50,357 nucleotides of DNA from NCBI GenBank assembly GCA_021825655.1, contig JAKAGU010000001.1, forward strand, positions 1-50,357, read 5' to 3'. The position numbers and the translations under genes are program-made. The notes beneath the pieces are model-generated. The model made no database searches, had not been told where the DNA came from, and was given only the letters and a program-made list of their open reading frames with translations. This DNA comes from a bacterium (GTDB taxonomy: Bacteria; Patescibacteriota; Doudnabacteria; UBA920). Positions 8,239-12,296 of this stretch are shown here, one piece after another. Numbering within the stretch: the stretch's first letter is position 1; every line of letters starts with the position of its first letter.

Positions 8239-8306
8239 AAGGTTCCAACCCCTCGATAAGAGCCCCCGGGCTCTTCCGCAAGGATAGAGGGGTTGGTCGT
8301 TTTTTA
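8239..8306 (+). ncRNA. Small structured RNA candidate (three stems, terminator-like 3' end)
   Basis: CCAACCCCTC (8245-8254) pairs with GAGGGGTTGG (8287-8296). Inner hairpin AAGAGCC-CCCG-GGCTCTT (8258-8275), small CC-GCAA-GG hairpin (8276-8283), then TCGTTTTTT. Confidence 0.6.
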
Positions 8307-9050
8307 TTTATACTCATAGTACGTTGTAGTTCCTTTTCTAAATATTTCAAACTCCGTACCATCAACCCTATTTACTATCCTATTTTGGATGACGTTATAA
8401 GGTCTGATTTCGCCTCTTTCCCACTTAACGGCAACGGCCCAGCAACAATAATCAGCGAGTTGACAATTTAAGTCTGAACATGTTTGGTGGCAAAAAATTT
8501 CAAAAGGAATATTTTCAAAGTTGGTTTTTAGATACCTCTTTAAAGTACCTAAAATAACTTTCTTCTTGTCACCCACAAACAAAGAACCCAATACAACCAC
8601 AATCTTTTGCACCCCCGTTCCATTTCCTACAAAAATATATTTGAGCAAAGTTTTGCATAATTGTTGGTACAAACCGATCCCCGTTACCCTCTCGATAAGT
8701 TTGTCTTTTTTATAATAAACCTCTTTATAAAGAGAAGAGTGGGTTTTATTTTTTTGAGCAATAACTGAATAAATTTTGTAGGACTCACCCATTGAGGACA
8801 AAATTGCGTATACTTTGTCTCGAATTTTTTGTGCGTCCTCCGTGGCATGAAAATACTCATGGTCAACTCCTTCGGTCAATAAATCATATCGAAGTTTTAC
8901 TAATTCATCACGTTTAGTTATAGGGTCGTTTGTTACCAAACAAGTCAGTGAAAAAAATTTGGTCCCTTTTGGAGAAAAATCAAAATTTCCTGATTCATCT
9001 ATAAATAAAAATAGGGTTTTTGACTGTTCAGACATCGAACTTTTGCTCAA
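8304..9050 (-). CDS. DUF3800 domain-containing protein (putative RNase H-fold)
   Basis: LFLFIDESGNFDFSPKGTKFFSLTCLV N-terminal signature of DUF3800; an alternative start MSEQSK is 18 nt downstream. Confidence 0.8.
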   Translation of the reverse strand: MSKSSMSEQSKTLFLFIDESGNFDFSPKGTKFFSLTCLVTNDPITKRDELVKLRYDLLTEGVDHEYFHATEDAQKIRDKVYAILSSMGESYKIYSVIAQKNKTHSSLYKEVYYKKDKLIERVTGIGLYQQLCKTLLKYIFVGNGTGVQKIVVVLGSLFVGDKKKVILGTLKRYLKTNFENIPFEIFCHQTCSDLNCQLADYCCWAVAVKWERGEIRPYNVIQNRIVNRVDGTEFEIFRKGTTTYYEYK

Positions 9051-9067: not shown

Positions 9068-10165
9068 TTATTTCCCAGACTTCCTTCTATTATCTTCTTT
9101 ACACAACATTTGACAATTTTCGGCGATGGTCTTACCACCCTCATGCCAAGGTTTGATGTGGTCAGCCTCCATCTCTTCTATTTCAAAATGTTTACCACAT
9201 TTTGGACAAATGCCATCTTGCTGCTCATATTTAGCCCTTTTAATATCTTGGCCAAATACCCTTAAACTCAAAGGTTTTTCGTCTCCTGTTAAAATATATT
9301 CGTAAATGCCAGACTTTTTCTGGATTTCTTCATCAGACATCAAATCCTTTACCCGCTTCTCTATTTCTACTGGTTTATATTTATCGTGCTTATGTTCATT
9401 ATAGAATTCACCCCAATTTAAACCATCCATCTCCTTACGATAGACTGTAAATACACTTTTTATCCAATCAATTACATCATTAAAATATTCCCAAAGCTCT
9501 TTAGCATTTTCATCCTTGCGGTGCTGCGCCATATAACCTTGAGCATCACCACTGCTTATCCATTTGAGGGCTGTTGCTAAATAGTCTTGTCGTTCCACTG
9601 AACCATTTACATAATCTTTTCCAACTCCATATGCAGCACAGTTTGGTTTACTGAAATATTTTTTTGCATCTGCAAGCCACTTACCAGTATGGGTTGCATT
9701 TAGTGCTTCTTGTTCGTTAAGATTTTTACCTTTAATATTGATAGTTTTAAACCAGTCCAGTATCTCCCCCTCTGTACCTTCACAAACACATATATCCAAC
9801 TCGTAGTTCCTTATCCTCTCAAGATCATCAGAGAGCATCGTGTCTACATAAATCTTATTTTGGTCTTTGTCAAAAACGTAATATTGATGGTCAAGAAAAC
9901 GACAGATGGATAAAGTTCTTTGTTGACCGTCAAGTAACTCATACTCTCCTTTAGCAATCTGAACCCAATACATAATGTTTAGAGGGTGGCCCTTTAAAAC
10001 AGTCGCTATGACAGCCTGCTCATCCGGTATATCGTAAATAAACTCGCGTTGATAAGCTGGACGAATATCTAGTTTACCACCATAACCAACAACACCGTCC
10101 CAATCTTGATCCTTATAACCATAAAAAAGATCACTAACCTTTATGGTTTTGCGAAGAGTCTTCAT
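9068..10165 (-). CDS. DUF262 (ParB-like/GmrS-like) protein with C-terminal HNH endonuclease domain
   Basis: Start adjusted to ATG at 10165 (MKTLRKTIKVSDLF). DUF262 motifs PAYQREFIYD and LLDGQQRTLSICRFL; HNH CPKCGKHFEIEEMEADHIKPWHEGGKTIAENCQMLCKEDNRRK. Overlaps the methyltransferase 3' end by 32 nt. Confidence 0.88.
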   Translation of the reverse strand: MKTLRKTIKVSDLFYGYKDQDWDGVVGYGGKLDIRPAYQREFIYDIPDEQAVIATVLKGHPLNIMYWVQIAKGEYELLDGQQRTLSICRFLDHQYYVFDKDQNKIYVDTMLSDDLERIRNYELDICVCEGTEGEILDWFKTINIKGKNLNEQEALNATHTGKWLADAKKYFSKPNCAAYGVGKDYVNGSVERQDYLATALKWISSGDAQGYMAQHRKDENAKELWEYFNDVIDWIKSVFTVYRKEMDGLNWGEFYNEHKHDKYKPVEIEKRVKDLMSDEEIQKKSGIYEYILTGDEKPLSLRVFGQDIKRAKYEQQDGICPKCGKHFEIEEMEADHIKPWHEGGKTIAENCQMLCKEDNRRKSGK

Positions 10166-11105
10166 TTTTCCCCTTTCTTTTAATAACAATCCTATCGAAT
10201 TTACGCTCAAATGTTCCATCACCATTAGCAATATAAAACCTCGCACCACCTTGCATATATGTTCCTTTAGGAGCCAGTTCTGACATCGGCCGGGCAAGCT
10301 CAAGACTTATTCCTAAAATTTCAAATTGGTCTGGATTGTATTTATCAAGAAAAGAGATGGGAACGCCCATGGCATCAAAATAATCTGATGGGATTTCTGC
10401 TGTCTTATCAACACTTATTGCATCATAGTTAATATATTTAGGGTATTTTTCTGGTACAAACTTTTCGTACAAAGGTAGTTCTTCATGGCGCTTTTTTACA
10501 TCAAGATTGGTCCACCACTGTACATTCCCAAGCTTCTCAATTTTATTTTGTGGATTAATAAATTCTTTTGGATTTACATACCCACCCCACATCTTATTAT
10601 CCTTAATATAAGGAAAAATTTCCTTATAAGTTATTGCATTTATAGGTCCGATGATTAAAAACTTTTTATTGTGACGCATCAGCTGGGCGATATATTCACG
10701 AAAAAGACTAAATGGCGGATTGGTACAGACAATATCAGATTCTTTCAACAATTCTATGCATTCAGGACTACGGAAATCGCCGTCACCTTTCAGGTCAATC
10801 TTTTGTAAACTATTCCTACCAGTAATTTCTAATCTGTAACCGTACTTTTTTACTGGGTCAAGTTGTCGAAATAAATCGGATTTAGAATAACGGGTACAAA
10901 CAAGCTTCTTAAGCCCAAAATGGTCAAAATTAAGTTTAAAAAATTCAGCAAACGCACTCTCAGCCGGATCATCACAATTACAATACACGACCTTATTTTT
11001 AAATTGTTCTTTGTAATAATTCAGCTCTCTCTGCACATCATCAAAACGAGTATAGAACTCGTCATTTTTAGCAGTTTTTGCAGATTGTAAGCTTCTATTC
11101 GCCAT
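10134..11105 (-). CDS. Adenine-specific DNA methyltransferase, EcoRI-methylase family
   Basis: AKNDEFYTRFDDVQRELNYY start characteristic of the EcoRI_methylase family; CNCDDPAESAFAEFF SAM region; CTNPPFSLFREYI (NPPF motif IV). Confidence 0.88.
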   Translation of the reverse strand: MANRSLQSAKTAKNDEFYTRFDDVQRELNYYKEQFKNKVVYCNCDDPAESAFAEFFKLNFDHFGLKKLVCTRYSKSDLFRQLDPVKKYGYRLEITGRNSLQKIDLKGDGDFRSPECIELLKESDIVCTNPPFSLFREYIAQLMRHNKKFLIIGPINAITYKEIFPYIKDNKMWGGYVNPKEFINPQNKIEKLGNVQWWTNLDVKKRHEELPLYEKFVPEKYPKYINYDAISVDKTAEIPSDYFDAMGVPISFLDKYNPDQFEILGISLELARPMSELAPKGTYMQGGARFYIANGDGTFERKFDRIVIKRKGKNEDSSQNHKG

Positions 11106-11108
11106 GGT

Positions 11109-12044
11109 TTATTTCTTTTGATAATTGGATCCAAAAGTATAATCTGTTAATTCCGCCATTGTTTTTGACTTTTTTATATCTACCAACTTGTAATATCGAG
11201 GGCCGAAGAGGGAAAGTTCTGGATTTTCTCCTAGTATTACATGGTTTTCTAGTTCAATAATATTTCCGTCATGATGAATAATATATTTTGAGGGTTTTTC
11301 CGGATAAGGCTCTATTTTAACTACTTTTGCGTAATAGCGAATTGCGCTAACAGGCGCGCCTTCATACAGTCCAACATATTTTATTTTTGAAATATTGTCA
11401 TGACTTATACGTACCGCCCACCATGCACTCTTCTTTTCAAAAGCCATTTCCCGTCCATCGCCAGTTGCCGGACAAATTAGAGTATCAAACTCTCTTGTAT
11501 CTTTTTCCTTTTTTTCTTGTTTAATCTGTTCTGGCTCTGCGTTGTCTTCTCGTAACGGTTCAAAAAGGTTAAAACCAAGGGTTGATATTAATAATTCAAA
11601 GTCTTCAAACAGGTCAATAATTGAAGCTTGTTTAAATTCACCTAGATTATTCTGATTTGGGTTCGTCTTGTTTTGAACTTCGAACCTACCAACTTCAATT
11701 GCTTTATTTATTGCGTAAGATTCCAGGAATTTTACATCTGCCTTGTCCATACCTTCTGCTTGGGCAATACAAATAACAGCCCACTTCCAAAAACTCTTAT
11801 TTACTAAGTGGCCAATAACTCTATTTTTAAAATTTTCACTTTCACCGATATAAACAGTAGACCTCTCGTCATCAAAAAGCATGTACAAAGCCGGGGTAGA
11901 CAAATCCGGCCGTGATTGGATAAAGTCAATCTTATCTCTTGGCACGACATACACACGTGCAAGTGCGTTTAAGAGATTTGCAATCTTAACACCATCAACA
12001 TCCGAATCTTTCAAAAATATTTGTATTGTCCTTGATTTTGCCAT
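11109..12044 (-). CDS. GIY-YIG nuclease family protein with additional C-terminal domain (possibly PUA/EVE-like)
   Basis: Start adjusted to MAKSRTIQIFLKD (12044). PALYMLFDDERSTVYIGESENFKNRV matches the GIY-YIG core; C-terminus KSAWWAVRISHDNISKIKYVGLYEGAPVSAIRYYAKVVKIEP is a separate compact region. Confidence 0.78.
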   Translation of the reverse strand: MAKSRTIQIFLKDSDVDGVKIANLLNALARVYVVPRDKIDFIQSRPDLSTPALYMLFDDERSTVYIGESENFKNRVIGHLVNKSFWKWAVICIAQAEGMDKADVKFLESYAINKAIEVGRFEVQNKTNPNQNNLGEFKQASIIDLFEDFELLISTLGFNLFEPLREDNAEPEQIKQEKKEKDTREFDTLICPATGDGREMAFEKKSAWWAVRISHDNISKIKYVGLYEGAPVSAIRYYAKVVKIEPYPEKPSKYIIHHDGNIIELENHVILGENPELSLFGPRYYKLVDIKKSKTMAELTDYTFGSNYQKK

Positions 12045-12045
12045 G

Positions 12046-12219
12046 TTATTTCTTCCAATCCTTAACCAACAACCCCCCTCTGACTTTCTTAACAAGAACT
12101 TTTTGCTTTTCGCGCCAGCGCAGCTTTTCCACCAATTCCACGGGCAAAGTCAGGCCCAACGAGGTTTTGCCCATTTTCTGGATTTTCCTAATGTTTTTCT
12201 CAGATTCTTTGCGGTTCAT
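12046..12219 (-). CDS. AbrB/SpoVT/MazE-like swapped-hairpin DNA-binding protein (57 aa)
   Basis: Manual translation: MNRKESEKNIRKIQKMGKTSLGLTLPVELVEKLRWREKQKVLVKKVRGGLLVKDWKK*; GKTSLGLTLPVELVEKLRW matches the AbrB consensus. Stop is 1 nt before the GIY-YIG ATG. Missed by the ORF track. Confidence 0.8.
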   Translation of the reverse strand: MNRKESEKNIRKIQKMGKTSLGLTLPVELVEKLRWREKQKVLVKKVRGGLLVKDWKK

Positions 12220-12222
12220 ATA

Positions 12223-12241
12223 TAAATACGTATTTAAATAC
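12223..12241. promoter_or_regulatory. Overlapping palindromic operator candidate upstream of AbrB-like gene
   Basis: TAAATACGTATTTA (12223-12236) and GTATTTAAATAC (12230-12241) are perfect overlapping palindromes starting 4 bp upstream of the ATG. Confidence 0.55.
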
Positions 12242-12296
12242 TAACTACATATTAATCCTGTTGTAGGCCTTTTGCAAAAACTGGCTCAAAATAGCC

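Follow-up and report, generated by a model that had tools for sequence, protein, structure and literature searches.

We analysed a 50,357-nucleotide (nt) stretch of contig C6 (hereafter the window) from a bacterium of the phylum Patescibacteriota, whose genome of 838 kb, recorded as 100% complete, is of a size apparently typical of the candidate phyla radiation. At 11109-12044, on the minus strand, a single unbroken reading frame with an ATG start encodes a protein of 311 amino acids (aa), in which a GIY-YIG nuclease module is followed by a charged linker and a compact C-terminal region, referred to below as the tail (Table 1). Since full-length homologues exist in other genomes, the closest in another genome of the phylum (L005, 64% identity) and remoter ones in cyanobacteria and proteobacteria, this open reading frame (ORF) is not due to chance. 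All the peptide strings quoted in an initial annotation of this DNA were found in the translation: the linker EQIKQEKKEKDTREFDTL at about residues 171-188, AWWAVRISHDNISKIKYVGLYEGAPVSAIRYYAKVVKIEP at residues 207-246 and KYIIHHDGNIIELENHVILGENPELSLFGPRYYKLVDI at residues 253-290. The gene is the second of five closely packed minus-strand genes, which encode, in operon order, an AbrB/MazE-like protein, the 311-aa protein, an EcoRI-type methylase, a DUF262-HNH protein and a DUF3800 protein. The stop codon of the AbrB/MazE-like ORF lies 1 nt ahead of the start codon of the GIY-YIG gene, and the genes that follow are spaced by 3 nt, by an overlap (the end of the methylase gene with the DUF262-HNH gene) and by 17 nt; rpoB and rpoC lie downstream of the cluster.

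Table 1. Features of the five-gene cluster and of the 311-aa protein (positions are those of the window)
Feature	Position	Strand	Evidence
GIY-YIG nuclease with a predicted PUA-superfamily-like C-terminal domain, 311 aa	11109..12044	-	translation, PADLOC, AlphaFold, Foldseek
N-terminal GIY-YIG module, residues 1-166, PDC-S14 family; conserved Y54, Y65, G67, R75, H79, E108, N125	11547..12044	-	PADLOC, 47-protein alignment
Charged linker, residues 167-183, joining the GIY-YIG module to the modelled domain	11496..11546	-	sequence
Predicted PUA/ASCH/EVE-like domain, about residues 184-305; invariant P192, F202, W208, Y227, P231, A239 in GIY-YIG-linked members	11130..11495	-	AlphaFold, Foldseek, conservation
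AbrB/MazE-like small ORF, 57 aa; probably heads and regulates the operon	12046..12219	-	weak Pfam MazE_antitoxin
EcoRI-type adenine methyltransferase, 323 aa	10134..11105	-	Pfam EcoRI_methylase E 2e-109; PADLOC MTase_II E 1.5e-101
DUF262 (GmrSD_N) + HNH protein, putative cognate restriction endonuclease	9068..10165	-	Pfam, PADLOC
DUF3800 protein, 248 aa, last in the cluster	8304..9050	-	Pfam DUF3800 E 1.9e-10

The N-terminal part of the protein (residues 1-178) was assigned by PADLOC to the candidate defence family PDC-S14 (E 7e-50), the Pfam GIY-YIG match being just under the cutoff of 22.6 bits, at 20.7. Across 47 aligned proteins that share the two-part architecture, the residues of this module listed in Table 1, the GIY-YIG tyrosines Y54 and Y65 among them, are 100% conserved; with its catalytic positions thus invariant, the enzyme is probably active. 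Among sister GIY-YIG proteins of the same phylum, four carry a DUF4357 tail (Pfam, E 2e-9 to 9e-20), one of these four also having a weak RAMA match. Although sister proteins carry DUF4357, a Pfam search of the 311-aa protein and of its tail gave no match to this family, which rules it out as the identity of the tail. The protein thus shares residues 1-178, with intact catalytic residues, with PDC-S14, a family that as a rule ends in DUF4357 (GIY-YIG + DUF4357), but has a PUA-like domain, as predicted below, in place of DUF4357.

As a single-sequence query the tail matched nothing in Pfam, the Protein Data Bank (PDB) or PADLOC; none of 78 tail members matched Pfam, and a profile of the 78 sequences retrieved only chance matches from the PDB (T-cell receptors, E about 1.5). 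Its position-by-position conservation is strong, with invariant F, W, Y and P (76-78 sequences), and an AlphaFold model based on an alignment of 76 relatives reached a predicted local distance difference test score (pLDDT) of 90.7 and a predicted template modelling score (pTM) of 0.84. In a Foldseek search of the PDB the first match of this model was ZmASCH (E 2e-4, probability 1.00, template modelling (TM) score 0.52). Further matches were MJECL36 (2p5d) and PH1033 (2hd9), both of which we take to be EVE-like and which showed likeness at the superfamily level only (TM 0.36-0.39), the YTH domains of Mmi1 and YTHDC1, and the restriction enzymes PD-T4-3 and VcaM4I (6YEX; rank 13, probability 0.91). 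VcaM4I, unlike the 311-aa protein, presumably combines an HNH nuclease with a true EVE domain as reader. An independent model, of the tail on a second architecture, again placed ZmASCH on top (E 4e-4, probability 1.00, TM about 0.5), and in a viral structure library the tail model matched ASCH proteins. At the fold level the model matches the PUA-superfamily beta-barrel.

Membership by sequence of EVE (PF01878) and of ASCH (PF04266) was rejected, as there was no Pfam match to either and hhalign gave the tail profile only 1% against 18 EVE sequences and 0.8% against 28 ASCH sequences; as a benchmark, the EVE and ASCH alignments score only 12% against each other. A Pfam search found no EVE domain in the genome of the window, and the G-x-K-x-x-E-like segment of the compared ASCH sequences is missing from the tail. 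Structural matches with no profile link therefore lead us to predict a PUA-superfamily-like fold, although the sequence places the tail in neither EVE nor ASCH. This agrees with the guess of the initial annotation that the tail has a PUA/EVE/ASCH-like fold; neither of the outcomes it had named as contrary was observed: the predicted fold is related to PUA/EVE, and the tail is not of the DUF4357 type seen in sister proteins.

Relatives of the tail were collected by a pattern scan of 85,462 species genomes with only two peptide motifs, which yielded 138 confirmed relatives, of which 80 loci were kept. Their hosts, which span many bacterial phyla and also archaea, are Cyanobacteria, Proteobacteria, Chloroflexi, Acidobacteria, Bacillota, Bacteroidota, Patescibacteria, Thermoplasmata, Methanophagales and others, and close relatives are also found on plasmids. 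When 78 loci were sorted by a rough regular expression, 45 were GIY-YIG fusions, 23 had a second nuclease-like domain and 10 were standalone, partial or other forms. A search of 381 genomes of the phylum gave 11 positives, two of them with the GIY-PUA form. There the tail behaves as a separate evolutionary unit, accompanying the same nuclease in L005 but another N-terminal domain in L010 and L011, while in L015 it stands alone. No tail was found in phage records, where the nuclease part had only distant homologues; IMG/VR held one tail-bearing contig (L019). The second partner (L093:5365-6342, L010, L068-L099) is a nuclease-like domain of the pattern IPDGYLIDF...YIIENEL..HDPY.HIGQQ, with conserved E, D, E-x-E and Q positions, which matched no Pfam family and whose model gave weak PD-(D/E)XK matches, the best to EndoMS/NucS (probability 0.82), the others to BsmI, BspD6I and EcoRV. 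The tail is thus a mobile module, present on different nucleases and also alone. Two further arrangements were seen. In L101:5734-7900 (L015), a helicase of the GIY-YIG-Schlafen group, a separate GIY-YIG ORF and a stop-interrupted standalone copy of the tail stand in a row, perhaps a decaying related system. On a Tolypothrix plasmid (L180:1080-1421), a second, truncated copy of linker and tail, apparently a partial duplication, adjoins a gene annotated 'restriction endonuclease'.

The neighbours of these genes include DNA-defence genes. Among 54 operonic neighbours PADLOC recognised Type II and III methylases (MTase_II, MTase_III), a IIG/DrmM-like enzyme, BrxL and the MADS methylase mad2. In L095 and L096 a standalone tail lies between a DUF6079 gene (ATPase) and an N6/N4 methylase gene, followed by an SNF2 helicase gene, a defence locus whose small subunit is a putative reader, comparable to the COG1743-DUF499-SNF2 operons with a standalone EVE described in the EVE census (PMC7641849). 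In three loci (L080, L085, L078) a nuclease-tail gene is the next gene after brxL or lies close to it, and in L080 pglZ is found immediately upstream; the putative reader-nuclease thus joins BREX loci too. Within the phylum the GIY-YIG nuclease, with either tail, ends or interrupts complete restriction-modification (R-M) operons of Type I (L104), Type III (L100, L105) and, in the window, Type II; the 64%-identical homologue (L005/L100) is the last gene of its operon, placed directly after a Type III mod gene. By a motif search with no background control, a methylase-motif ORF was detected nearby in 9 of the 29 GIY-YIG-tail loci of at least 9 kb and in none of the other 20, as would fit an enzyme that works with no cognate methylase; the figure for PD-(D/E)XK-like tail loci of that size, from the same uncontrolled motif search, was 7 of 16. 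The presence of the same tail on different nucleases, and in other phage-defence loci, makes a common reader of modified phage DNA its probable role.

The relation of the 311-aa protein to the R-M genes beside it can be addressed by comparison with other genomes. The DUF262-HNH protein has matches to GmrSD_N (Pfam, 2.5e-13) and HNH (9e-13), and PADLOC recognises it as REase_II over its full length (E 3e-122). Its gene occurs in 36 of the 381 genomes of the phylum, and of 20 loci checked 18 have the methylase adjacent, the GIY-YIG-tail protein being present in the window only. Pairs of EcoRI-type methylase and DUF262-HNH are also carried on plasmids of Gram-positive and Gram-negative bacteria, likewise without the GIY-YIG-tail protein. 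The pair (window 9068-11105) is thus a compact, self-sufficient two-gene R-M module, and as it normally occurs without the GIY-YIG-tail protein, the latter was rejected as the cognate restriction enzyme of the EcoRI-type methylase. The pair being complete alone, and the 64% homologue lying in a Type III operon, the 311-aa protein is therefore an accessory able to join different R-M operons. The EcoRI-family methylase to which the initial annotation tied the nuclease is real and adjacent (Table 1); the functional tie is weakened, both because the pair normally does without a GIY-YIG-tail protein and because the closest homologue accompanies a Type III methylase.

By analogy with CMoRE (PMC12923530) and with the pairing of BREX and BrxU (PMC8565348), we propose that the 311-aa protein cuts DNA as a single chain, in a modification-dependent (Type IV-like) manner, and that it is an accessory to the Type II R-M operon in which it lies, a role consistent with its gene context and to which we give a probability of roughly 0.55. 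The C-terminal PUA-superfamily domain would bind DNA, probably with a modified base lodged in a surface pocket of the kind found in YTH, EVE and ASCH domains, and the N-terminal GIY-YIG domain would then cut close by. The methylase and DUF262-HNH pair would attack unmodified phage DNA, and the 311-aa enzyme phage DNA whose base modification blocks the pair. As host DNA would otherwise be cut, the enzyme must disregard the operon's own N6-methyladenine (m6A), so that cytosine or hypermodified bases would be the likelier targets. Several points weigh against this proposal. The TM-scores of the tail against known members are only about 0.5, and its hhalign scores against EVE and ASCH are very low. 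The ASCH/PUA proteins also include RNA binders, the ribonuclease ZmASCH and amidohydrolases. Lastly, the methylases found near 9 of 29 GIY-YIG and 7 of 16 PD-(D/E)XK-like tail loci, in the motif search described above, also fit a role in telling self from non-self.

Such a role, in which the PUA-like domain would detect the presence or absence of the host m6A and the GIY-YIG domain would cut unmarked DNA as a second or cognate enzyme of the EcoRI-type system, would account for the position of the gene directly ahead of the methylase gene of the same operon, at a gap of 3 nt, for that of the L005/L100 homologue directly after a mod gene, for the sister proteins in Type I and Type III operons (L104, L105), and for the m6A-binding YTH domains among the fold matches. 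It seems unlikely nonetheless: the methylase and DUF262-HNH pair is complete alone in the phylum and on plasmids, most relatives showed no methylase-motif ORF nearby in the uncontrolled motif search, and a protein that partners unrelated methylases of different type cannot read one site. Quite improbable, in our view, is an RNA-targeting effector whose ASCH-like domain would bind RNA and which would degrade host or phage RNA as an abortive defence. ZmASCH, the best single fold match, is indeed a single-strand-specific ribonuclease and nucleic-acid binder (PMC5615036), but DNA is the substrate of the GIY-YIG enzymes known to carry a modification-sensing domain (PMC12923530, PMC11037411), the second partner of the tail resembles PD-(D/E)XK DNA nucleases, and the neighbours of the tail genes are DNA-defence genes.

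One might also imagine that the protein is a mobile or homing-type GIY-YIG endonuclease whose tail binds DNA generically, and that its gene sits in the R-M operon but plays no part in defence. These genes lie repeatedly within R-M operons or next to BREX and MADS genes, and on several nucleases the tail is conserved as one specific folded domain, not a DNA-binding array, which makes this very improbable, although it would fit the patchy occurrence (11 of 381 phylum genomes, two with the GIY-PUA form), the close relatives on plasmids and a serine recombinase-like ORF that adjoins L005.

Fusions of a reader to a GIY-YIG nuclease are already known (CMoRE) or predicted (EVE-GIY-YIG, PMC7641849; wH-GIY-YIG, PMC11037411), and the proposed modification-dependent 311-aa endonuclease may be set beside them. 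In CMoRE (PD-T4-3), a GIY-YIG Type IV restriction endonuclease, the GIY-YIG domain cuts and the C-terminal domain senses 5-hydroxymethylcytosine (5hmC) and its glucosylated form (5ghmC) (PMC12923530; PDB 9U75). Its authors found no structural homologues of the sensor domain (PMC12923530), whereas the tail of the window clearly matches ASCH and YTH. The 9u75 chain came at rank 39 of the Foldseek matches of the tail (probability 0.89), and the CMoRE sensor may be a divergent PUA-like fold. The two enzymes differ in that CMoRE has a GIYxY-YIG motif, whereas the 311-aa protein reads ALYMLF...VYIG, with no third tyrosine, and PADLOC places it in PDC-S14 only, not in PD-T4-3. The predicted EVE-GIY-YIG fusions (PMC7641849) have the same proposed architecture and role, a PUA-superfamily reader on a GIY-YIG nuclease, and standalone readers in methylase-SNF2 operons, but the tail matches neither Pfam EVE nor the EVE profile. 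The wH-GIY-YIG endonucleases (PMC11037411) are likewise Type IV, with the reader fused to GIY-YIG, but this reader is a winged helix for 6mA in Dam-methylated DNA, unlike the PUA-like fold predicted here. BREX and the Type IV enzyme BrxU form complementary layers in one defence island (PMC8565348) and provide a model for a methylation-based system paired with a Type IV enzyme, although BrxU is a GmrSD-family DUF262-DUF1524 enzyme and not GIY-YIG (PMC8565348).

What appears to be new is a PUA-like family that Pfam does not model, which alternates with DUF4357 on one nuclease scaffold and is also carried by a second nuclease lacking a Pfam family; the EVE census may already count some members as divergent EVE. 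Because the tail has no Pfam family model, its hosts are named only 'GIY-YIG nuclease' or 'hypothetical'. Somewhat tentatively, we suggest that it may be an undescribed family of modified-base readers, swapped among GIY-YIG nucleases, Pfam-less PD-(D/E)XK-like nucleases and standalone subunits of methylase-SNF2 or BREX-like systems, and that it may turn the ordinary R-M operon of the window into a defence of two layers, one for unmodified and one for modified phage DNA. Should the tail prove to be a reader of a modified base, it would identify a large number of Type IV-like defences that have gone unrecognised and provide new modification-specific nucleases for use as tools; whether the R-M operons of ultra-small bacteria contain their own enzymes against modified phages would also become directly testable.

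The outer genes of the cluster call for brief comment. The match of the AbrB/MazE-like ORF to Pfam MazE_antitoxin (E 5e-4, 20.4 bits) is under the cutoff of 24.7. In window 12046-12260 this ORF is preceded by an AT-rich near-palindrome, TATTTAAATACGTATTTATATA, possibly an autoregulatory site of the R-M operon. At the other end, a clear homologue of the DUF3800 gene adjoins the DUF262-HNH gene in one other genome (L177).
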